Under the pieces are notes generated by a model. It was not told the DNA's origin and searched no databases. It was given only the letters and a program-made list of their open reading frames with translations. The translations under genes and the position numbers were made by a program. Below are positions 6,194 through 18,339 of a DNA stretch of 64,000 nucleotides, one piece after another (position 1 is the stretch's first letter; every line of letters begins with the position of its first letter). Source of the DNA: Candidatus Treponema caballi (lineage in GTDB: Bacteria > Spirochaetota > Spirochaetia > Treponematales > Treponemataceae); NCBI GenBank assembly GCA_018066285.1, contig JAGHRS010000015.1, forward strand, positions 1 to 64,000, given 5' to 3'.

Positions 6194-8314
6194 TTAGCGG
6201 CGGACTATGAACTCGCGTGGAATCTTTTTTGAAAGCGCGTCAGCTTTTTTTCTGTATTCGTTGTACAGGAATTCCTGAGCGCGTACTTCATCTTCGCCTG
6301 TGACAGGTTTACGACGTACCCATGTACCTGTGCTTTCAAGATAATGCGCTTTTGTGTTATCCCGGAAGTACGTGAGGAGTTCGTCTTTAAGCGCGCTGAA
6401 AATGTCCTGCTGAACGACCGGGAACATAAGCTCTACGCGGCGGTCAAGGTTACGCGGCATCCAGTCAGCGCTTGAAAGATACAGCTCTTCTGCGCCCGCA
6501 TTCTGAAAGTAAAACATCCGGGAGTGCTCAAGGTAACGGTCAACAATGCTTACGACGGAAATGTTTTCGCTCTGTTTCTTTACGCCCGGCACGAGCATGC
6601 AGATGCCGCGTACGTTGAGCAGAACGCGCACGTTCGAGCAGCTGGCACGGTAGAGCGCTTCTATGATTTCCTCGTGAGCGAGGCTGTTCATCTTTGCAAT
6701 GATGAGTCCGGGGCTTTCCGGCGTTGACGTCTGGATTTCCCTTTCAATAAGCGAAAGAAGACGCGACTTCAGGTTGATTGGCGCCATGTACAGGTTCTTC
6801 ATGGTCTGGATGGCAGAGTAGCCTGAAATCATGTTGAAGAAGAGCGTCGCGTCGTTTGCTATCTGGACATTTGTCGTAAAGAGAGAGATGTCGCTGTACA
6901 GGCGGGCAGTCTTGTCGTTGTAGTTTCCGGTGGACATGTGCACATACCGCTGAATGCCGTCCTGTTCGCGGCGTACGATGAGCAGCATCTTTGCGTGCAC
7001 TTTCAGGTTCTGGATGCCGTATACGACGATGGCGCCTGCCTGTTCAAGCTCAGCCGCCCACGAAATGTTCCGCTTTTCATCAAAGCGTGCCTTAAGCTCA
7101 ACGAACGCGGTGACCTGTTTTCCGTTCTGCGCCGCTTTTTCGAGTGCGCGTACAATAGGCGAATCACCGCTTGTCCGGTACAGCGTCATCTTGATTGCAA
7201 GCACCGACGGATCAGATGCGGCGTCGTTCAGGAGTCTGACGACAGGGTCGTACGCTTCGTACGGCACATGCAGCATGACATCTTTCTGGCGCAGTGTTGC
7301 CCAAAGCGGCTGGTTTTCAGGGAAGGCGACGGACAGGCAGTTTTTCCACTGCGGGTTCTTAAGCTTCTGAAAGCCTTCGACTGTGGTGACATCTGTAAGC
7401 GTAGAGATGTCTACAATACCGCTTGTCGGATAGATGTCACTGTCAGAAAGCGCAAGTTTCTCTTTAAGGATGGCCTGAATGCGCTTACTTTCATCGTTGC
7501 AGACAAGACGTACTGCCCGCGCTGACTCGCGTTTTGAAAGAGCTTCTTCCATTGCCTGGATGAAGTCGCTTTTTGTTTCTTCATCAACAGCGAAGTCCGC
7601 GTCGCACGTGACTTTGAAAAGGAGCTTTTCTGTAATGCTGTAGCCCGGGAAAAGCTGCGTTCCGTACAGGCTGATGATGTCATCAACAAGGGTAAACTGC
7701 TTTTCGTCCGCTGTTGAAGGCAGCCAGATGACGCGCGGTATGCTTGTCGGAATCTGGACTATGGCAAGCGGCTCCTTCACCGGCTTTAAAAGCTCGGGAA
7801 GCTCGTTTTCCGGAAGCAGCGGCTGAAGCAGGAACGCTGCATGAAGGCGCAGGTTGGTGATGTACGGGAACTGTCCGTTGTCGTTGGTGCGCCTGGGTGT
7901 CAGAAGCGGGAAGATTTCCTGCCTGAAAAGGCGTTCGGTGTATTCTTTCTGCTCAAGCGAGTATTTCTTTGCGGGAACGTAGGTGAGACCGTGCTTTTCG
8001 AGCGCCGGGAAAATCTCCTTGTTCAGGACATGGTTCTGGATATGCGTCAGTTCGTGGACACGCTCTGAAATGCGTTCAAGCTGCTGTCTGGCAGTAAGGC
8101 CGGAGCTGTCGCGCCAGTCAGGGTCTTTTTCTGCGGTATGGCGGAGTCCTGCCACACGGATCATGAAAAACTCGTCAAAGTTTGAGGTGACGATTGTCAG
8201 GAACTTAAGGCGCTCGAGCAGAGGAACGCTTTTGTCGGCCGCTTCATCAAGAACGCGGGCGTTGAACTCAATCCATGAAAGCTCACGGTTGAAGAACTTC
8301 TGCTTCTTTCCCAT
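6194..8314 (-). CDS. ppk1: polyphosphate kinase Ppk1
   Basis: Reversibly transfers the terminal phosphate of ATP onto inorganic polyphosphate. The 706-residue length is typical. The catalytic His sits in LKVHAKMLLI, followed by MSTGNYNDKTARLYSD, and the second conserved His is in YLEHSRMFYF. The frame can be read from GTG at 8326, but ATG 8314 is preferred: GAGG lies 6 bases before it and the mature-like start MGKKQKFFNRELSWIEFN fits the family. It follows ppx almost directly, so synthesis and breakdown of polyphosphate are co-transcribed. Confidence 0.95.
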   Translation of the reverse strand: MGKKQKFFNRELSWIEFNARVLDEAADKSVPLLERLKFLTIVTSNFDEFFMIRVAGLRHTAEKDPDWRDSSGLTARQQLERISERVHELTHIQNHVLNKEIFPALEKHGLTYVPAKKYSLEQKEYTERLFRQEIFPLLTPRRTNDNGQFPYITNLRLHAAFLLQPLLPENELPELLKPVKEPLAIVQIPTSIPRVIWLPSTADEKQFTLVDDIISLYGTQLFPGYSITEKLLFKVTCDADFAVDEETKSDFIQAMEEALSKRESARAVRLVCNDESKRIQAILKEKLALSDSDIYPTSGIVDISTLTDVTTVEGFQKLKNPQWKNCLSVAFPENQPLWATLRQKDVMLHVPYEAYDPVVRLLNDAASDPSVLAIKMTLYRTSGDSPIVRALEKAAQNGKQVTAFVELKARFDEKRNISWAAELEQAGAIVVYGIQNLKVHAKMLLIVRREQDGIQRYVHMSTGNYNDKTARLYSDISLFTTNVQIANDATLFFNMISGYSAIQTMKNLYMAPINLKSRLLSLIEREIQTSTPESPGLIIAKMNSLAHEEIIEALYRASCSNVRVLLNVRGICMLVPGVKKQSENISVVSIVDRYLEHSRMFYFQNAGAEELYLSSADWMPRNLDRRVELMFPVVQQDIFSALKDELLTYFRDNTKAHYLESTGTWVRRKPVTGEDEVRAQEFLYNEYRKKADALSKKIPREFIVRR

Positions 8315-8322
8315 GCAACGCC

Positions 8323-9852
8323 TCACACCATGAGCAGTGAGTAACCGAAGACAGCCTCAAACAGGTCGCCTTTTTCGCTCAGAGCCGCTTTCTCAAGATT
8401 TGTGTCATGTGTTCCATGGATATGCAGGATGAATTTATCCTCTTTTATTTCAGTGTCAAAATCAGTCAGTTTCTGCGTGTGGCTTCTGTCGAGCGCATCG
8501 GCAACACGGAGCAGGGCAGTCAGTTTCAGGACAGTCACGCGTTCATCACGTGGGAGGGAATGAAAGGCTTCATCAGCCTGTTTTGGAGTAGAGCCTCTAT
8601 GATAACGGGATACGAGGGAGACAATTTTCATGTCTTCTTTGTTCAGTCCGAAAATGTCCGAGTTGGATATGATGTACTGGCTGTGCATCTGATGATCACT
8701 GCCGCGGATGAAGTTTCCAATGTCGTGCAGGATAGCCGCAATCTCCAGAAGCAGGCGGCTGTGTCCGTCAAGACCTAGCTCTCCGCGCATGTCATCAAAC
8801 AGATGCAGTGCCACTTTCTCAACGTAAGCGGCGTGCGGCTCATCAATGTGGTAACGCTTTCCAAGGTTGCGCGCAGAAGCTGCTATCTGTGAGATGAACT
8901 CCTGCTGCAGCGTGTCGGACGGCGCGGAAATGCGGCTTAGAATGACGCCCTCGCGTATTGATGTGTCTGAAACGATGACCTGCTGTGCTGACGTCTGATT
9001 TAAAAAGAGCTGATAGGTCAGGAGCCCTACGCCAAGCGCACGAGCTTCTGCATACGAGCAGTTGAACCGCGCCATTCGCTCTTCTTCTGAATACTGCTGC
9101 ATTTCATCAACAAAGCGGTTGAAGTCGTCTTTTTCAATTGTCCAGGCATGAAGCGAAACCTGCTTTCCAATGGCAAGAGCAGCAGTGCGTGCTTCCGGTC
9201 CGATTGTCACAAACTGCCGGATGCGCGAAAGACTTATTTCCGTGTTCAGGTTTTCGCTTGTATTGTGGACGTATTCTGAAAGATAGCGGTGTACATCATC
9301 AGCTGAACCGAGGAAGGACTTCATGTTCTGCTCAACGATGACGGTTCCCATGCGCAGGCTGTGGACAGCGGCCATTTTGCCGTGTTCAAGCATCATGAGC
9401 TCGGTTGAGCCGCCGCCGGTTTCAATGATGACGGAGTTTTCCGTCTTCAGTTCAGGCAGGTCATTGTGAAGCGAATCAAGCAGGGCGATGTACATGAGGC
9501 GGTTTTCTTCAATGCCGTCAATCACCTTTACTTTGAAGCCCGTTTTTACGAGTATGCGGTCAAGAACGCTGTCACGGTTCTTTGCTTCACGCATGGCGCT
9601 GGTTGCAATTACCTGGACGTGGTTTGAATCAATACCCCAGCCGGCAAGTTGCTCTCTGAAACGGGAAAGCACTTTGAGGCATTCGAGCAGTGTGTTGCGG
9701 GACACTAATCCTGTAGTGAAAACATCCCATCCAAGGGATACAGAGACTTCTGATCTGTCAATGACTGTCCACTGTCCGGGACCGGTAATCTCGCACGCCA
9801 TGAGGCGTATGCCGGTAGACCCGATTTCAACTACTGCCTCAAGCGCTGTCAT
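8323..9852 (-). CDS. ppx: Ppx/GppA exopolyphosphatase with C-terminal HD domain
   Basis: 509 residues. The N-terminal two thirds are an actin-like ASKHA phosphatase: VEIGSTGIRLMA (phosphate-1 loop), ATSAMREAKN, and IETGGGSTELMM (phosphate-2 loop). The C-terminal third carries the HD metal motif HDIGNFI. Together these give polyphosphate or pppGpp hydrolysis. An AAGGAG lies close before the ATG. The gene sits between an (alpha/alpha)6 glycosidase and ppk1 with gaps of about 10 bases or less. Confidence 0.92.
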   Translation of the reverse strand: MTALEAVVEIGSTGIRLMACEITGPGQWTVIDRSEVSVSLGWDVFTTGLVSRNTLLECLKVLSRFREQLAGWGIDSNHVQVIATSAMREAKNRDSVLDRILVKTGFKVKVIDGIEENRLMYIALLDSLHNDLPELKTENSVIIETGGGSTELMMLEHGKMAAVHSLRMGTVIVEQNMKSFLGSADDVHRYLSEYVHNTSENLNTEISLSRIRQFVTIGPEARTAALAIGKQVSLHAWTIEKDDFNRFVDEMQQYSEEERMARFNCSYAEARALGVGLLTYQLFLNQTSAQQVIVSDTSIREGVILSRISAPSDTLQQEFISQIAASARNLGKRYHIDEPHAAYVEKVALHLFDDMRGELGLDGHSRLLLEIAAILHDIGNFIRGSDHQMHSQYIISNSDIFGLNKEDMKIVSLVSRYHRGSTPKQADEAFHSLPRDERVTVLKLTALLRVADALDRSHTQKLTDFDTEIKEDKFILHIHGTHDTNLEKAALSEKGDLFEAVFGYSLLMV

Positions 9853-9861
9853 GCCGGCTCC

Positions 9862-11292
9862 TTAAAGCTTGTCGATAAGCATTGAGCACTTACCTGATGG
9901 AATAGGCAGTGTCTTTTTCTTCTGGCCGAGAATGTTGATGGTGAAATAGTACAGCTTTTCGCTTTCCATCTGGATTTCCCATCCACGTATACTCTTGTTT
10001 GACAGGATTGTAATCATGTTGCGCTTGAGCGACAGGTTTTCAATACCCATGACCTCAAGGTTAGGAATAATCCAGTCAACGGTCTTTCTCGGCAGGCTGA
10101 TTGAAAGTCCGATGACGTTTTCAAGCATGAGTGCGATTGTTGAAAGACCTGCTGTGTGCACATAGTGGCTGCGTGGCTCGTGTGCCTCATCCTTGGAAAC
10201 AGACTTGCCTTCTTTTGTCGGCTGGTAGCATTCCCAGAGATCGCCTTTCTGCTTACTGTCGCCCGGGAACATGCCGTCGAGCAGGTAGTACAGGTGGCGG
10301 ATTGCGCATTCGCGTGCCATATCGTAGCGCTGGTACTTTTCAAGGCCCTTGATGATCATGAAGTTGAACGCCGGATATACGCTTCCGCAGAAGCCGTTTC
10401 CGGTCGGATCAAAATGCGGGTCATCAGCGGAAAGCGTCGGGAACGGATGGTCTGTGCCGAACGTTTCCGGATTGCTTAAGTGGCTTACCAGCGCGTCAGC
10501 TTTGTCTTCGTTCGGGATTTCTGCCATGAGTGGCCAGAAGCCGGCGGCTGTCTTCTGCGGCAGCTGCTCCTCGTTTTTGTCGAGGTCGTGGTAGAAGCCT
10601 GTATCTGCATTCCACATGCGGGAATTGATGCGTGTCTTGAGTGAGAAGTACATCCTCTTGTACTGGAAGCTCAAATCCTTGTCATTGAGGATGTCTCCCA
10701 GGGCAGACATGTACAGTGCGTTTATGGCGAGGGCGCTGTTGAAATCAACAGGATAAAATGTGCCTTCACGTGGTGCATTGTACATAGTTGAGGCTGTAAC
10801 AGGAACGGAATACAATCCGTTTTCCTGCTTGAAGTTTTCATCGAGCCAGGTCATGTACTTCTGCAGAACCGGCATGACTTCCTTTACGCGGCGTTTGTTT
10901 GCAGACTTGTGGAACAGGTTGAACTCTGCCCATGCAAAAAGCGGCAGACCGACACCATCCGGATTGTCATCTGTGAGGACAGGTTTGTCTGTTTTCGTAT
11001 CATAGCGCCAGTGGATTGCTCCGTTTGGTTCCTGACGGGCATAGAAATAGTCAAGGTTCTGGTTTGCCGGATAGTTCCTGTTTGAATAGACGAGAAAGAA
11101 AGATGAAAAAATAGATTCAAACTGATCAAGAATCTGTGCATCGTTCTGAGGATACAGAAAAAGACCGTCTGCAGTCTGTTCCAGGTTTTTTGGATCAAGC
11201 CAGAATTCCTGAAGCCAGGCCCACGTTTTGTCGTAAATATCGACGAAGTCCTGATCGTAAAAGTGAATCTTTGGAAAATCGCGTTTGTTCAC
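9862..11292 (-). CDS. (alpha/alpha)6-barrel glycoside hydrolase, GH63/GH37/MGH1-like
   Basis: 476 residues without a signal peptide. The patterns GVGLPLFAWAEF, MWNADTGFYHDLD, FGTDHPFPTLSADDP and the C-terminal HTAGLSTIALMLENVIG match the GH63/GH37/mannosylglycerate-hydrolase superfamily. The exact substrate (trehalose-like, glucosylglycerate-like or oligosaccharide) cannot be set. The usual YWRG-PVW patch is altered to GFCGSVYPAFN, so specificity may differ. The start is GTG at 11290-11292 with AAGGAG five bases upstream. It is the first gene of an apparent operon with ppx and ppk1. Confidence 0.78.
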   Translation of the reverse strand: MNKRDFPKIHFYDQDFVDIYDKTWAWLQEFWLDPKNLEQTADGLFLYPQNDAQILDQFESIFSSFFLVYSNRNYPANQNLDYFYARQEPNGAIHWRYDTKTDKPVLTDDNPDGVGLPLFAWAEFNLFHKSANKRRVKEVMPVLQKYMTWLDENFKQENGLYSVPVTASTMYNAPREGTFYPVDFNSALAINALYMSALGDILNDKDLSFQYKRMYFSLKTRINSRMWNADTGFYHDLDKNEEQLPQKTAAGFWPLMAEIPNEDKADALVSHLSNPETFGTDHPFPTLSADDPHFDPTGNGFCGSVYPAFNFMIIKGLEKYQRYDMARECAIRHLYYLLDGMFPGDSKQKGDLWECYQPTKEGKSVSKDEAHEPRSHYVHTAGLSTIALMLENVIGLSISLPRKTVDWIIPNLEVMGIENLSLKRNMITILSNKSIRGWEIQMESEKLYYFTINILGQKKKTLPIPSGKCSMLIDKL

Positions 11293-11439
11293 ACACGCTC
11301 CTTAAAATAACAACATTTTTTTTGTAATTTGACGCAGTGTCAACATACAGTATATCATATTTTAAATAAAGGTGATATATCTATTTTAGCAATTTTGGAA
11401 TGAAATTACTATTTTATAACGAAATAAGGATGAAATCCA
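11293..11439. promoter_or_regulatory. divergent promoter region
   Basis: An AT-rich spacer separates the minus-strand glycosidase operon from the plus-strand GatB-like fusion. AAGGA lies 9 bases before the plus-strand ATG at 11440, and TATAAC near 11416 is a weak plus-strand -10 candidate. The minus strand has TTGACA near 11338 with no convincing -10 box. No clear operator was found. Confidence 0.35.
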
Positions 11440-13794
11440 ATGTATCAGTCCCATGTCTATCTTGAAGCCCGGATCCTGCTGCCAACAGCGCCTGCTGTTT
11501 TTACCATAACAGATAATCCCGTTTCTTATTCTGTCAATCCTGTTGTCCTGCAGCAGGTGGCCTCTCTTTCGCGTGCCCTTGGCTGTACGTGGAAGGAGGA
11601 TGCGCGTTTTGAGCATATAACGGGAACGCTTTCCGTTCCGCCAGAATACAAGCTTTCGGGGCTTTCAGTGTGCATTGCGGAAAACGGCAGCCTTGCCATT
11701 GAGTTTCACCGCCGCCAGAAGAAAATCCTTATTGAAGAACTCCGCATAGAAGAAGACGCCGGCCGTCTTACGCGTTCCGACGGCAATACCCGCATGGACT
11801 ACACACACGCCGGCATGGCGAGTGTGCGCATCCGTACGAGCGATGACTTTGAGCTTGGTGAGGAAGCGTATCTGTTCCTGGATGAACTCCGCCGGCTCCT
11901 GCAGTATCTGGGGCTGTGCGGCGATATGCCGGCAGATGCGCTCATCAGATGTAACGCACACGTTGCGCTTGCCAAGTACCCGGACATGCCTGATTACTAT
12001 GTTAAGCTCAGAAACCTGAACTCGTTCAATTTCGTCAGGAAAGCGGTCAACTCAGAACTTTCCCGGCAGGAAGAAATCCTCGTTTCGGGAAAAACGGTCG
12101 CATCTGAAAGCAGACTCTGGAACGAACGCCAGAGCATTACCGAGTCATACAAGACGCGGCAGACAGTGAACAGCCGCTTTGCTCCTGTTGATGAGGCTGC
12201 GCCTTTCCATCCGGGAAGTCCGGTCCCTGCTGAGTATGCAGATTCCCTTACTCCTATAGAACTGCCCGGCGCCCGTCGTGACAGACTTTGTTCGCAGTAT
12301 GGGCTTTCTCGTACAAGGAGCGAGCTCATCTGCGATGAAAAGAGCCGGGCTGATTTTTACGAAGCGGCGGTCGCAGCCGGTGCTGACAGCATGGACGCTG
12401 CCCACTGGATTTCTTCCGAGTTGCCGCGAATCCTTAAAAGAAGCGGTATCGCTTCGGGCTTTGGAAAGCTTACTCCTGAAAAGTTTGCAGCTGTCATCAG
12501 GATGTTCTCTGCCAATGCCGTCAACTCTGGTATGGCAAAGCAACTGCTTCAGTCTGTGCTCGAAACAGGTTCTGAACCAGAAGTGCTGGTCAAGCAGCGC
12601 GGATGGACGCAGATTACGAGTGAAAAAGAGCTGCTTCCGTTAATCCGCCAGGTAATCAGCGAAAACCCTGCGGAAGCGGAAAAGCTTTCTGTCGGTGAAA
12701 TGGCGCCGCTCGAATTCCTGACCGGACTCATCATGAAGAAGACAAACGGCATGGCAGACCCGCTTGCCGTCAAGGCACTCATAAAAAAAGAGCTCCATAT
12801 CAGTGTTGTGTACGTGCTCTCGTTCGGAGGCGCAATCTGCGGCAAGCACAGGGAAGACGGCTCTGTGGCGCCTGCTGATGAACGTACGCTCGACGCGCTT
12901 CTGGCAGAAAGCTCTTCTGGCATCAAGTACCAGGTTGTGCCGCTCGGCCATATGCTCAGCGAAGAGATTGAGCCAGGAGACTGGGCAACGCTCATCACCG
13001 AGATTGCGGCGCGTATCACGGCAGGAACTGCGAACGGCATTGTCGTAGCCCATGGCACAGATACGCTGCCATATACAGCGGCACTGCTGTACTGGCTTTT
13101 CTCAGACGCGGATGTGCCGGTTGTGCTTACAGCTTCCTCAACGACACCTGACATGTCTGATGAAGCGGCGTGCAACATGAAGCTCGCGGTGGAAACTGCG
13201 TGCCAGAAGAAAAGCGGCGTGTATGTTGCATTTGGCGGCAAACTGCTTTCTCCGCTCAACCTCAAGTTCATGAAACCGACTCCGGACGGCTTTACCAACT
13301 GGAACATGGAAAAGCCCGTTTTCACACGCTCTGGTCCGCTCGCCTTCCAGTTCTCAGGCATATCCGACCTGGACGCTTTTGTCCTGAAGCAGATCCTGCG
13401 TGAAGCTGCTGACAGCATGCTGGTGTGCCGCGTGTATCCTGGACTCAGGTCGGAAACGTACGCTTCCCTCATTGATGAAGGCATAACGCGCTTTTTCCTT
13501 GAACTGTATGAAACGGGAACAGGCAGCATGCGTGGCAGTGACTACTCACTCAAGCAACTGCTCATGCGCGGCAAGAAAAAGGACTGCCGCTTCTACTGCA
13601 CGTCACAGCAGGAAAGCTGCCTGAACTTTGCAGATTACGCGACCAGCCGCCGTATGTGGCGTGAAGGCGCCGTTCCTATGGGAAAGCTGACGACCGAATC
13701 CGTAGTTGCGCTCTATTTCGCAGCGTCGCTTGCCTCAGACTCAGAGGAAGAGCTTGATCAGTTCATGGAAACGTACGCAGAAATGTACAGCTGA
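11440..13794 (+). CDS. GatB/GatE-like protein fused to an L-asparaginase/GatD-like domain
   Basis: 784 residues. Residues 1-245 resemble the GatB/GatE cradle (RIEEDAGR at 102-109, KLRNLNSFNFV at 189-199). Residues 285-452 resemble the helical and YqeY-like tail that reads tRNA (WISSELPRILK, LTGLIMKKTNGMADP). Residues 453-784 resemble a type I asparaginase: HGTDT at 538-542 is intact and VAFGGKLLSP is present, but the nucleophile motif TGGT has become FGGA at 462-465. Archaeal tRNA-dependent amidotransferase uses GatD (asparaginase-like) plus GatE (GatB-like) as separate chains; here both are one. The lost nucleophile and the altered GatB motif (DYTHAG for DYNRAG) argue for a changed or regulatory role. 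Confidence 0.85.
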   Translation: MYQSHVYLEARILLPTAPAVFTITDNPVSYSVNPVVLQQVASLSRALGCTWKEDARFEHITGTLSVPPEYKLSGLSVCIAENGSLAIEFHRRQKKILIEELRIEEDAGRLTRSDGNTRMDYTHAGMASVRIRTSDDFELGEEAYLFLDELRRLLQYLGLCGDMPADALIRCNAHVALAKYPDMPDYYVKLRNLNSFNFVRKAVNSELSRQEEILVSGKTVASESRLWNERQSITESYKTRQTVNSRFAPVDEAAPFHPGSPVPAEYADSLTPIELPGARRDRLCSQYGLSRTRSELICDEKSRADFYEAAVAAGADSMDAAHWISSELPRILKRSGIASGFGKLTPEKFAAVIRMFSANAVNSGMAKQLLQSVLETGSEPEVLVKQRGWTQITSEKELLPLIRQVISENPAEAEKLSVGEMAPLEFLTGLIMKKTNGMADPLAVKALIKKELHISVVYVLSFGGAICGKHREDGSVAPADERTLDALLAESSSGIKYQVVPLGHMLSEEIEPGDWATLITEIAARITAGTANGIVVAHGTDTLPYTAALLYWLFSDADVPVVLTASSTTPDMSDEAACNMKLAVETACQKKSGVYVAFGGKLLSPLNLKFMKPTPDGFTNWNMEKPVFTRSGPLAFQFSGISDLDAFVLKQILREAADSMLVCRVYPGLRSETYASLIDEGITRFFLELYETGTGSMRGSDYSLKQLLMRGKKKDCRFYCTSQQESCLNFADYATSRRMWREGAVPMGKLTTESVVALYFAASLASDSEEELDQFMETYAEMYS

Positions 13795-13807
13795 TTGAAG
13801 GGTGACA

Positions 13808-13848
13808 ATAAAAAAGGCCTGCACTTCATGATAGCGGGCCTTTTTTAT
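13808..13848. terminator. bidirectional intrinsic terminator
   Basis: ATAAAAAAGGCCTGC (13808-13822) pairs with GCGGGCCTTTTTTAT (13834-13848) with one wobble. It lies between convergent genes and has T runs on both strands, so it serves both. Confidence 0.92.
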
Positions 13849-13867
13849 GCGTTGTCTGTCGTGCAGT

Positions 13868-15580
13868 TTATTTCTCGAGGGTAACGACTTCAGTTTCAGA
13901 ACGCTGGCGGTATTTCAGCAGCAGTGTGTTGGTGTCAGCGTTATAGACATATCCGGATGAGTTGTATGTCTCAAACCGTGGGTCGGTACGGAACTGCATG
14001 CCGTAAATCTGGATAATGCTGAACGGCTTTATGCCGGTTACAATCATGTAATGAATGCCGTTCTGCGGGAATGTTGCCGTGAATTCTGTAATGCCTTCTG
14101 CAGTTGTTCTGTAGGTCATGTTCTGTGCGACTGTCCAGGCCCATACAGGTTCTGTTCCCTTGTCGTCAAGCAGCGCAACATGCGGATAGTATTTGTTTTC
14201 CGGTGCAAACAGCGGGTACAGTTCCGCGAGTTCCTCTGTCGTCAGTGTGTACAGCTCACTCAATGCTGAGTTCAGGAGCATGTAGCCCGCCTGCTGTACT
14301 GTGTTGTCAGATCTGAGCGTTCCTGTCTGTGCAAGTGCAAGACCTGCTTTTGCCGTAGTTATGCGGTCAACAGGCTCGTCGTTTTCCATAAGGATAAGTT
14401 TGTCCTCTGCAAGCTGTGCGCGCTTTTCAAGAAGTGCTGTGCAGGAATCGAGCACCGGTTCAAGGCGTGAAGCATATGAAGCTTTCTGCTCTGACAGTTT
14501 TACGTACAGCTGCAGGATGGCACCTGCCTGTGCAACGGTGACTGTGTCAAAATCAAGTGATTGTGCCATATCCAGAATCGGATTGCAGGCTGAAGCTCCG
14601 TGTGTCAGCAGATACATGTCCAGATTCTGTATCTCGTAGACTGCAGGATTATTGGAAACGACGGCACCGGTAATCTGTGATTCAAGCTCGTTCAGTGTAC
14701 TTCTGAGACCCGGGGCAACAGAGGCGAGTGTGTCAAAATATGGGGATGAGAAGAACGTGTGTCCTTCTTTGGCTTTCAGTGAATCAGGAATCTGTTCCAG
14801 TGCCTGGGTCAGGTTGCCTTTGTATGCCTGTTCTGCAATCCAGGCTGAAATGGCCTGTTCAGATGCATTCTGGAAGCTTGCTTTTGGGAATGCAGTTGCA
14901 ACGGCTGAACGCAGCTGTTGCTTTGTATCTTTGAAGACAGACTGCTGTGCAAGTTCAAGACCGGTGACATCCTCAAACGTAAAGATATGGATTTCCTTTC
15001 TGTAGCCGTAGCTCATCCGTGGCAGTTCTGCAGAAAGCGTCAGTCCTGTTTCCGTAATTCCTGCAGCGGTCAGTTCATATTCTGCTTCCTTGGTGGAAAG
15101 AATGACTCTGTGCTCATCGTCAGAAGAAACGTCTGAGGTAGTGAATGCTGCGACCATTTTGTACGGAATGGTGACATAATCAGCATCTTTTGGAAGATTT
15201 GCCTTTATGGTATATGGAATATCCGCAGGGTCTGGAGAGTTCCAGGTCAGTGTAACATCATTGTCGAATATCAGTGAAAGGGTGTTGTCTCCTTCCTCGT
15301 AATCAATGAAAGTCAGGGGAATGTCTGTGTTATTCTTCCGCAGGATAACAGGATATGTATCGTTTGCTGAAAAATTGAAACCACCTGCCGAAAGCTGGAA
15401 ATTGTTGCTCAATACCTGCTGATTGTTATGATTTACTGTCTCAGATATAATGAACTGAAAAGGACCGATTATTCTGGTAATAATTGATTCTTTTCTGAAC
15501 TGAATGAAAAAAATGCCGAAAATAATGAGTATGTAAAGGACGGTAAGTCCAAACATTTTTCTTACTGGATGTCTTGTCAT
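13868..15580 (-). CDS. membrane-anchored protein of unknown function
   Basis: About 570 residues with one N-terminal transmembrane segment (VLYILIIFGIFFI) after a basic start, and a large extracytoplasmic part. Residues up to about 200 look beta-rich; the centre is helical (QTGTL, QQAGYMLLNSALSEL), and the C terminus is beta again. I do not recognise the family. The longer reading from 15607 is rejected because a promoter -10 box lies downstream of that codon; ATG 15580 fits a leaderless transcript. It is divergent from the TPR lipoprotein gene. Confidence 0.75.
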   Translation of the reverse strand: MTRHPVRKMFGLTVLYILIIFGIFFIQFRKESIITRIIGPFQFIISETVNHNNQQVLSNNFQLSAGGFNFSANDTYPVILRKNNTDIPLTFIDYEEGDNTLSLIFDNDVTLTWNSPDPADIPYTIKANLPKDADYVTIPYKMVAAFTTSDVSSDDEHRVILSTKEAEYELTAAGITETGLTLSAELPRMSYGYRKEIHIFTFEDVTGLELAQQSVFKDTKQQLRSAVATAFPKASFQNASEQAISAWIAEQAYKGNLTQALEQIPDSLKAKEGHTFFSSPYFDTLASVAPGLRSTLNELESQITGAVVSNNPAVYEIQNLDMYLLTHGASACNPILDMAQSLDFDTVTVAQAGAILQLYVKLSEQKASYASRLEPVLDSCTALLEKRAQLAEDKLILMENDEPVDRITTAKAGLALAQTGTLRSDNTVQQAGYMLLNSALSELYTLTTEELAELYPLFAPENKYYPHVALLDDKGTEPVWAWTVAQNMTYRTTAEGITEFTATFPQNGIHYMIVTGIKPFSIIQIYGMQFRTDPRFETYNSSGYVYNADTNTLLLKYRQRSETEVVTLEK

Positions 15581-15588
15581 TTTAAGAC

Positions 15589-15617
15589 AGTTTAGCTGAT
15601 GAAGCATTGAAAATCAA
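15589..15617 (-). promoter_or_regulatory. promoter of the 13868-15580 gene, probably leaderless
   Basis: TTGATT (15612-15617), 17 bases, TAAACT (15589-15594), then eight bases to the ATG at 15578-15580. No Shine-Dalgarno is visible. The predicted start site is one base before the start codon. Confidence 0.6.
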
Positions 15618-15657
15618 CTGCCGGATTTGACACCAGAAAACATTCAGGATGTAATAT

Positions 15658-17109
15658 ATGAAGAGTCTGAACAGAAAACACATTATTGCAGTCTGCATAA
15701 GTCTGATGCTTGTGCTTGTCTTTTTTTCATGCGGAACGACAGAAGAAGCTGCATCACAGGCAGAAGAAGAGTTTGTTCCTGTTGTAACACCGGAAGAAAA
15801 AACAGTAATGGATCTCAGTCCGAAACCGGTTTTTACGGAAGAGTCCTTTGTGAAATCTCTTCAGGAAACGCTTTCTTCCGGCTCTCTTGAAGAAGCGCTT
15901 GCCCTTTTTGATGACATTCCCGTGGAAAACGAAGAAAGTTATGACCTCAACTACATTCATGCATCGCTGCTCATTTCAAGCGGTGACTATGATAAAGCTT
16001 CTGAAATAGCAGATAAGCTGCTTGAAGCCCAGCCCGCAAATACGGACGCGCTTCTGCTTCAGACTGTTATTGCAAAGGCTACTGGTAACACAGAAGAGAA
16101 GAAAAAGCTACTGAATCAGATTCTTGAATCAGATCCCAACAATTCGGATGCAAATACAGAGCTTGGTAATGAGCATATGCTCAAGAAGAACTGGCGGCTT
16201 GCCCGGGACTACTATTACAGGGCTTACCGCTCAGATTCATCGAATATGGAAGCTCTTGCGGGGTATGGCAAGAGTTCTTACTATCTCGGTCTTCTTGAGG
16301 ATGCGGAGAGGGCTTTCCGCACCATCATTGAAAAGTATCCGGACGATGCTTTCTCCTGGGCTTATCTTGCAAAATTGTATTCAGAATGGGACAAATACAA
16401 CGACGCTGTTGACTGCGCTTATCATGCTGTTCTGGCAGAGCCGGAATATTCCGATTACTGGCTTGATTATGGCGATTACCTGACAAAACTGAAAAGATAT
16501 GATGAAGCTGAAGAGGCTTTTACAAAGGCAATATCGCTGCGTCCTGAATACTTCCTTGGATATGTGTATCGTGGCGGTGTCTATGATACACAGGGGAAGT
16601 TTGACCTTGCCAGAGTCGATTACGAGAAAGTCGCCCAATTGCGTCCGGAATACTATTATATCTATGAATCTCTTGCTTTTCTTGCCTGGCATGATGAAGA
16701 CTGGACTGCCGCCCGGGAGTGGTTTACAAAAGCAGCAGCTGCAAGTCCCAAGGATACGACGTATCCGATGCTCATAGCGGTATGTATGTATCACGAGGGT
16801 AACACCCGTGCTGCAAAAGATTACGTGTATAAGACGGTTCTCAAGAAATTTGCCAGCAGTTCATCAGAATATGCGGTCATGCGTCTGTTTTACGATAATG
16901 TAGGTGATGGAAATGTTGCCAATAAGATTCAGAGCGAATCAAACGTAAATACGCGCGGTAAACTGCTTTTCTATCTTGCCCAGTACTATGAAATTCGGGG
17001 TAAAGACAATCTTGCTCAAAAGTATTATATTGCTATAAGCGAAATGGAAGCTCCTATGTTCATAGAAAGCCGTCTCAGTGACTGGTCTCTTGAAAAAATG
17101 ATGAACTGA
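15658..17109 (+). CDS. tetratricopeptide-repeat lipoprotein
   Basis: 483 residues. Signal segment and lipobox FFSC predict an acylated protein. From about residue 95 to the end the chain is a series of 34-residue TPR helices with the usual A/G/Y/P spacing, e.g. GDYDKASEIADKLLEAQP and KRYDEAEEAFTKAISLRP. TPR lipoproteins of spirochaetes act as scaffolds at the periplasmic face; the partner is unknown. AGGA precedes the ATG. It lies 51 bases upstream of the TraB-family gene in the same direction. Confidence 0.88.
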   Translation: MKSLNRKHIIAVCISLMLVLVFFSCGTTEEAASQAEEEFVPVVTPEEKTVMDLSPKPVFTEESFVKSLQETLSSGSLEEALALFDDIPVENEESYDLNYIHASLLISSGDYDKASEIADKLLEAQPANTDALLLQTVIAKATGNTEEKKKLLNQILESDPNNSDANTELGNEHMLKKNWRLARDYYYRAYRSDSSNMEALAGYGKSSYYLGLLEDAERAFRTIIEKYPDDAFSWAYLAKLYSEWDKYNDAVDCAYHAVLAEPEYSDYWLDYGDYLTKLKRYDEAEEAFTKAISLRPEYFLGYVYRGGVYDTQGKFDLARVDYEKVAQLRPEYYYIYESLAFLAWHDEDWTAAREWFTKAAAASPKDTTYPMLIAVCMYHEGNTRAAKDYVYKTVLKKFASSSSEYAVMRLFYDNVGDGNVANKIQSESNVNTRGKLLFYLAQYYEIRGKDNLAQKYYIAISEMEAPMFIESRLSDWSLEKMMN

Positions 17110-17160
17110 TACTGCATTTCTGGCAGTGGAAGCTTCAAAAAACAACTTTAAGGAAAAAAA

Positions 17161-18339
17161 ATGACACGCACAGAAAAACGCATATCATGTAACGGCCGCG
17201 AAATTATTCTTGTTGGAACAGCACACGTTTCACAGGCAAGTATTGATGAAGTTACGGAAGTTATAAAAACAGAAACACCAGACTGCGTCGCCATTGAACT
17301 TGATGACCAGCGCCTTGAATCCCTGAGAAATCCGGAGAACTGGCGCAATCTTGATATCGTGAAGGTTCTTAAAGAAGGCAAGGGCTTCCTCATGCTTGCA
17401 AACCTCGTGCTTTCTTCATTCCAGCGCCGCATGGGCGTTAATGCCGGAGTAAAGCCGGGCGACGAGATGAAGGCCGCTATTGCTGTTGCTGAAGAAATGC
17501 ACATCAGGACGGCGATGGTTGACCGTCCGATAAACGTGACGCTGCGCCGTGCATGGGCAAAGAACAGCCTGTGGGGCAAGTGCAAACTGCTTGCAACCCT
17601 GCTTTCAACAGCTTTTGACAAAGAGGAAATCCCTCCTGAAGAAATAGAGAAGATGAAAGATTCCAGCGAGATGGACAGCATGATGGCCGAACTCGCTGAT
17701 TATCTGCCGACAGTCAAGGAAGTGCTCATTGACGAGCGCGACATGTATCTTGCACGCTCAATCTGGGCTGCAGGCGGAACAAAGACCGTCGCTGTTCTCG
17801 GTGCAGGCCATCTGCCTGGTGTTGAAAAGCACATTCAGGCGCTCGCAGCCGCTGAAGAAACAACTGACGTTTCTGCCATTTCAGAAGTGCCGCCCGCAGG
17901 TGTCGGTGCTAAAATTGCAGGACTCGTCTTCCCGGTTGCAATCGTTGCGCTTATCGTAGCAGGTTTCTTCAAGGGCGGCGCATCCTACTCACTGGACATG
18001 CTCGTCCGCTGGCTGCTCTGGAACGGCTCTCTCGCCGCTCTTGGAACGCTGATTGCCGCCGGACATCCGCTTGCGATACTCGTTGGCTTTGTGGGAGCCC
18101 CGGTCGCAACACTGAACCCGGTCATAGGCATCGGCCTTTTCACAGGCATCGTCCAGGCATGGGCGAAAAAGCCTAAAATTGAAGACATGGAGCATCTGAA
18201 CGAAGATGCCGGCAGTATGAAGACATTCTACAAGAACCGCATCCTGCGCGTTCTGCTCGTATTCTTCCTGTCGTCAATCGGCGGCGCAATCGGAAACTTC
18301 ATCGCAGTTCCGACGCTCATTGCGAACCTGGCAGGCTGA
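17161..18339 (+). CDS. TraB/PrgY (GumN/TIKI) family membrane protein
   Basis: 392 residues. The N-terminal domain begins with the family signature LVGTAHVSQAS and continues with CVAIELDDQR; RDMYLARSIW and VLGAGHLPGV follow. The last 150 residues hold several transmembrane segments (LVFPVAIVALIVAGFF, HPLAILVGFVGAPVATLNP, VLLVFFLSSIGGAIGNFI). Relatives include PrgY/TraB, which limit peptide pheromone activity, and the TIKI metalloproteases. A proteolytic or pheromone-limiting role here is inference. AAGGA precedes the ATG. Confidence 0.88.
   Translation: MTRTEKRISCNGREIILVGTAHVSQASIDEVTEVIKTETPDCVAIELDDQRLESLRNPENWRNLDIVKVLKEGKGFLMLANLVLSSFQRRMGVNAGVKPGDEMKAAIAVAEEMHIRTAMVDRPINVTLRRAWAKNSLWGKCKLLATLLSTAFDKEEIPPEEIEKMKDSSEMDSMMAELADYLPTVKEVLIDERDMYLARSIWAAGGTKTVAVLGAGHLPGVEKHIQALAAAEETTDVSAISEVPPAGVGAKIAGLVFPVAIVALIVAGFFKGGASYSLDMLVRWLLWNGSLAALGTLIAAGHPLAILVGFVGAPVATLNPVIGIGLFTGIVQAWAKKPKIEDMEHLNEDAGSMKTFYKNRILRVLLVFFLSSIGGAIGNFIAVPTLIANLAG

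Follow-up and report, generated by a model that had tools for sequence, protein, structure and literature searches.

A GatB–asparaginase fusion in Treponema: relic of a native spirochaetal amidotransferase subunit and putative regulator

Why would a bacterium maintain a single protein that joins a subunit of a tRNA-dependent amidotransferase to an asparaginase-like domain, when signature residues of both are altered? The question is raised by a gene of Candidatus Treponema caballi located in the window, that is, the whole 64,000-nucleotide stretch of DNA analyzed here. The gene and its parts are as follows.

11440..13794, + strand: orphan gatB·ans fusion gene, 784 aa, ATG start, a single ORF
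11440..12255, + strand: GatB cradle (former kinase/transamidase) domain, residues 1-272
12256..12798, + strand: GatB helical domain and YqeY tail (the tRNA-binding part in GatB), residues 273-453
12799..13791, + strand: pseudo-asparaginase/GatD-like domain, residues 454-784

Three Pfam domains are recognized in the protein: GatB_N (residues 32-247, 1.6e-28), GatB_Yqey (305-452, 1.6e-32), and Asparaginase (457-623, 1.1e-27). The GatB domains score above the Pfam cut-offs, and the match to GatB_Yqey spans positions 1-148 of 148, so that the tail is full-length. Thus, an earlier note on this locus was right to describe GatB-type and asparaginase-like domains in one chain with a tRNA-binding-type tail. 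An assembly artefact joining two genes is ruled out, since one open frame spans the fusion in seven of seven genomes of the same genus, and the frame is intact in nearly all of the 63 genomes that carry it (E < 1e-100) among 195 sampled Treponemataceae.

The earlier note also considered the chain to be a copy of archaeal GatDE, and this part of its interpretation did not hold. The NCBIfam models of bacterial GatB give 242 bits (NF004012, cut-off 338) and 216 bits (TIGR00133, cut-off 314.8), below both cut-offs, and the GatE models give 47 and 23 bits, below their cut-offs of 456 and 319.55. With 242 bits for GatB against 47 for GatE, the first half belongs to GatB and not to GatE; moreover, GatA is still present in the bacterial operon of the fusion. 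A Foldseek search with the AlphaFold model of the protein (mean pLDDT 85, pTM 0.63) retrieves GatB chains first, followed by type I asparaginases and GatD. The name "GatD-like" for the second half was fair, since GatD and the type I asparaginases resemble this half to about the same degree: profile A2 matches 4q0m (2.4e-37) and 1zq1 (2.5e-37) equally. For the fold, Foldseek gives 9ufr, 4q0m, and 1zq1 with probability 1.00.

Intact fusion operons and the orphan locus

Outside Treponemataceae and one sister family (f3), the GatB site of the fusion is intact, with the motifs GLEIH, CPVCMGYPG, HLEEDAG, DYNRAG, and RCDAN, and intact fusions score 622 and 553 bits, above the NF004012 and TIGR00133 cut-offs. 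The order gatA-gatB·ans-aspS2 is observed in 25 of 25 loci with an intact fusion. In 23 of them the arrangement is complete, with a glycoside hydrolase (GH) gene divergent from gatC-gatA-gatB·ans-aspS2; the other two end at contig edges. The aspS2 product is a non-discriminating Asp-tRNA synthetase: it exceeds the cut-offs that NCBIfam sets for aspartate--tRNA(Asn) ligase. Because asnB was not found in nine of ten intact-fusion genomes (the tenth has a fragment), AsnRS is encoded in all ten, and GlnRS in six of the seven tested, the operon probably represents a tRNA-dependent route to asparagine, as judged from a gene set that covers AsnB, not AsnA. Deinococcus and Thermus provide comparison systems for asparagine made on tRNA(Asn) (PMC4206432). 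No other GatB was found in five intact-fusion genomes searched with the full profile. It is unlikely that the asparaginase domain supplies ammonia in the intact fusions, since the nucleophile is absent from all of them and gatA is in the operon.

Full-length fusions were found by a search of the phylum in family f3 of the same order and in families f11, f16, f17, and f21 of the class, and 61 of 394 genomes were positive in a class-wide search with the asparaginase domain. Among the relatives in the genome collection are records labelled Treponema denticola, T. porcinum, and Gracilinema caldarium. Viral contigs contained no relatives, and a viral origin was rejected on this ground. Unfused relatives (loci L187-L194 and L248) have an equal operon lacking the domain. 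The unfused gatB of L187 and L188 (genomes G415 and G487) is nested beside the fused L180 with support 0.996, which suggests secondary loss of the domain. At L191 (G480:C1:1589919-1592701), AsnRS and an aspS2-type gene are adjacent, beside gatB.

In the window, the same GH gene adjoins the fusion.

9862..11292, − strand: MGH1-like glycoside hydrolase gene, divergent neighbour, also divergent from gatC in intact operons
11293..11439, no strand: 147-bp intergenic gap; in intact-operon relatives, the GH gene and gatB·ans are separated by gatC and gatA

In the intact operons, gatC has this GH gene as its divergent neighbour, which makes the GH gene an anchor of the ancestral gatCAB locus. In all six f3 loci it adjoins gatB·ans alone; of 109 Treponemataceae-type loci, 91 contain a member of the GH cluster, and the sampled ones have the identical divergent layout. 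The orphan locus of Treponemataceae and f3 lacks gatC, gatA, and aspS2. In the GatB tree, which contains no other phyla, the orphan clade (support 1.0) branches from within the intact fusions, and the asparaginase-domain tree agrees (0.999; both are FastTree supports). The nesting in both trees and the GH-marked locus argue that the window gene is an in-place remnant of the native gatB and an ortholog of the Spirochaetia GatB·asparaginase fusion. Almost certainly, the orphan is a relic of the native Spirochaetia gatB that has lost its catalytic residues. The history starts in an ancestor with the gatB of a gatC-gatA-gatB-aspS2 operon, which gained a C-terminal type I asparaginase/GatD-like domain lacking the threonine nucleophile. 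Many Spirochaetia still use the fusion as GatB. In Treponemataceae and f3, gatC, gatA, and aspS2 were lost at the GH-marked locus, with an operon containing an unfused gatB elsewhere.

Such an operon can indeed be observed. The search for gatCAB proposed in the earlier note revealed a second, canonical gatB together with gatA and gatC on contig C35 of the source genome. No GlnRS was found in this genome, so Gln-tRNA(Gln) presumably depends on the C35 gatCAB. On C47 lies a gene for a canonical type I asparaginase, its TGGT intact. Throughout Treponemataceae and f3, the operon with unfused gatB sits away from the orphan locus, and working gatB and gatA genes accompany the orphan in the same genome wherever tested. 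In the GatB tree, the Spirochaetia GatB clade does not include the GatB that works in Treponemataceae, a placement suggesting that the native gatB was replaced. The working operon of f3 still contains aspS2 in several genomes. With regard to L195 and L240, which are f3 working operons, and to L231, the NCBIfam gatC model has no match in the two f3 genomes tested (G370 and G452) or in G025, a Treponemataceae genome of 1.1 Mb; L240 has a weak tblastn match to gatC.

Rewritten sites in the two halves

The sites were compared between 61 orphans (55 from Treponemataceae and six from f3) and 24 intact fusions. In the GatB half of the window protein, the following positions are of interest.

11470..11472, + strand: R11, replacing the Mg-ligand His of GLExH (H in 24/24 intact fusions, R in 61/61 orphans)
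11749..11754, + strand: E104-E105, acidic pair of the HLEEDAG motif, kept
11827..11829, + strand: R130, replacing the Mg-ligand Glu of LLEIVTEPD (E in 24/24 intact fusions, R in 58/61 orphans)
11953..11955, + strand: N172, replacing Asp of RCDAN (D in 24/24 intact fusions, N in 60/61 orphans)
12004..12006, + strand: K189, replacing Glu of VEIKNLNS (E in 24/24 intact fusions, K in 61/61 orphans)

In a model of yeast GatB, H36, E156, and E186 are Mg ligands, and E34, T189, N230, and S232 contact ATP (PMC4027206). By motif alignment, not superposition, the first and third of these Mg ligands correspond to R11 and R130 of the orphan. H102R is found in all 61 orphans, and the equivalent of N174 is changed to Y, F, or H. 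Of the Mg/ATP-site motifs of GatB (LExH, EE, EIVT, DANxS), orphans keep EE and the T; E9, E104, E105, T133, S195, R225, and W227 are conserved. The change in the DYNRAG motif noticed earlier is real, this motif being DYTHAG (residues 120-125) in the window protein. The N-terminal Cys cluster CPxCxGxPG is kept by the intact fusions, missing from the window cradle, and gone or remodelled in many orphans.

Of 140 cradle columns fixed in the intact fusions, 30 are kept and 13 switched in orphans. The substitutions are fixed and charge-changing, and thus are not a product of drift. With the ATP/Mg pocket rewritten by H11R, H102R, E130R, D172N, and E189K, the orphan should no longer phosphorylate aminoacyl-tRNA, a full absence of catalysis being unprovable from sequence. 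The tail may still bind tRNA, but only 13 of its 39 columns fixed in the intact fusions are kept by orphans, so retention of this ability is not assured. The bacterial GatB subunits of GatCAB (S. aureus 3ip4/2g5i, A. aeolicus 3h0l, T. maritima 3al0), which share the cradle, the helical part, and YqeY, are among the best fold and sequence matches, and the orphan has E9, E104, E105, and T133 in common with them. It differs from them in the Mg-ligand His and Glu replaced by Arg, in D172N and E189K, in the lost Cys cluster, in the added C-terminal pseudo-asparaginase, and in the absence of adjacent gatC and gatA. Further counterparts are the intact Spirochaetia fusions (loci L176-L180 and L279-L298), with the same two-part chain, FGGA/MGGA, SEE, HGTDT, TSQQ, and GH-side locus; they differ from the orphan in the intact GatB site and in membership of gatC-gatA-gatB·ans-aspS2.

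Three motifs characterize the asparaginase-like half.

12823..12834, + strand: FGGA (residues 462-465) in place of the catalytic TGGT
12958..12966, + strand: S507-E508-E509, invariant in 85/85 fused domains and aligned with SED of GatD 1zq1
13051..13065, + strand: HGTDT (residues 538-542), ligand-site motif, kept

Both the replacement of TGGT by FGGA and the persistence of HGTDT had been recorded correctly in the earlier note. TGGT is absent from all 85 fused domains (55 Treponemataceae orphans, six f3 orphans, and 24 intact fusions). Its position is mostly occupied by (F/M)GG(A/S/T/V), with Ala at the nucleophile position in all intact fusions and Ala, Ser, Thr, or Val in orphans. Loss of the nucleophile before orphaning is strongly supported. 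HGTDT is kept in most fused domains; its Asp is altered in five of 55 orphans and the K609 site in 10 of 55, and for those orphans a strict asparagine-sensor reading is weaker. Orphans keep 49 of the 72 columns fixed in intact fusions and have switched none, so that the asparaginase-like domain is better conserved than the GatB half.

The domain shares its fold with type I L-asparaginases (P. furiosus 4q0m, T. kodakarensis 5ot0), and S507, T540, D541, and K609 are mostly kept; it differs from them in that TGGT is never present and in the Tyr-containing loop. The fold is likewise common to archaeal GatD (1zq1, 2d6f), from which the fusion is distinguished by the missing TGGT, by the lack of a match to the GatD N-terminal region, and by GatB, not GatE, as partner. 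As the nucleophile is missing, the domain should not hydrolyse asparagine. According to their entry titles, PDB 7c8x and 5dnc are Thr-to-Ala asparaginases crystallized with bound Asn; thus, a dead asparaginase is able to hold substrate. The fused domain itself may hold an amino acid ligand in the same way.

Possible role of the orphan and alternatives

In 20 close pairs, dN/dS is 0.02-0.11 for all domains, with the exception of 0.22 in one domain of one pair, which shows strong purifying selection on the orphan gene. About 60 sampled species keep it intact. Retention under strong selection despite the lost catalytic residues probably reflects a new, non-catalytic job. The gene is missing from about two thirds of Treponemataceae genomes and thus is dispensable there.

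The reading we favour is that the orphan is a relic and a double pseudoenzyme, probably a ligand-binding regulator (the ligand perhaps being asparagine or aspartate) on a tRNA-binding scaffold; as a whole, we hold this explanation to be evenly balanced between right and wrong, and the sensor or regulator role of the orphan, taken separately, to fall slightly short of that. The asparaginase-like domain would bind Asn, or else Asp, Gln, or Glu, without hydrolysis. In the intact operon, it could act as a product sensor on the asparagine-making enzyme; in the orphan, it would gate a regulator whose GatB half, with its basic pocket, serves as a scaffold binding tRNA or a partner. More tentatively, the GatCAB of many Spirochaetia may have a built-in asparagine sensor, the catalytically dead domain on GatB, for feedback control of tRNA-dependent asparagine synthesis; in Treponema the sensor would have survived the loss of the enzyme and now act on its own as a regulator whose GatB pocket is charge-reversed. 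The earlier suggestion of a repurposed tRNA-linked amidotransferase or sensor agrees with this. That the fusion once was, and in relatives still is, the working GatB lay beyond the view of the earlier note, as did the fixation of the rewritten site in the whole clade.

We know of no built-in regulatory domain on any GatB. The titles and abstracts returned by literature searches contained no description of this GatB·asparaginase fusion, which is weak evidence, as subscription journals were largely outside the scope. In many spirochaetes, a defined operon encodes a pathway enzyme that has a dead asparaginase-like domain fused to it, and the orphans provide a natural experiment: the pathway genes disappeared, and the fused subunit stayed, with a rewritten site. 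Both feedback regulation of tRNA-dependent asparagine synthesis and the route from an amidotransferase subunit to a pseudoenzyme with a new role thus become testable.

Another scenario, which we consider rather unlikely, is a neofunctionalized enzyme, in which the basic cradle pocket performs other chemistry or binds another anionic substrate, such as a nucleotide, a phosphorylated metabolite, or the 3' end of aminoacyl-tRNA. Mere decay would not give the observed pattern, in which the five pocket substitutions are fixed, not drifting, and seven other residues from E9 to W227 are conserved. However, two of the three modelled Mg ligands are replaced by Arg, many members have lost or remodelled the Cys cluster, and no metabolic gene accompanies the orphan beyond neighbours that are also found without it. 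Still less probable is a partner or decoy subunit that docks to GatA or to the working GatCAB, or holds tRNA(Asn) or tRNA(Gln), with no ligand sensing. The GatB fold and full tail are kept, and working gatB and gatA are available in the same genome; however, the working GatA belongs with a GatB of a different lineage, so co-evolution of the interface is unexpected, and the better conservation of the asparaginase-like half points away from the GatB face.

A decaying pseudogene is very improbable. Its absence from many genomes of the family and the broken frames in G009 and G023 would fit decay, but full-length ORFs 43-66% identical across more than 10 genera, with invariant motifs, do not, and the dN/dS values refute it for the lineages tested. 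At these two loci (G009:C21, L071; G023:C1, L072), a stop or frame change interrupts the fusion, reflecting either decay or a sequencing error. Finally, a working single-chain GatDE-like amidotransferase, suggested by the domain content and the similarity to GatD of 1zq1, can practically be dismissed, given a GatB half that is not GatE, the absence of TGGT and the altered GatB site in all orphans, and a complete gatCAB elsewhere in the genome.

A functional link of the orphan with the divergent GH gene found no support, this gene being present in 190 of 195 family genomes, whether or not the fusion is there. A link with asnB was rejected: asnB occurs in 16 of 21 orphan-bearing Treponemataceae and in seven of 22 without the orphan, a difference confounded by phylogeny. 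Convergent to the fusion lies a gene (13868-15607, − strand) for a 579-aa protein that has no Pfam match over the cut-off and is conserved in about half of the loci. It belongs to a conserved block (6194-18339) with the order ppk - ppx/GppA - GH - [gatB·ans] - unknown 579-aa protein - TPR - TraB, which is observed in many Treponemataceae and partly in f3.
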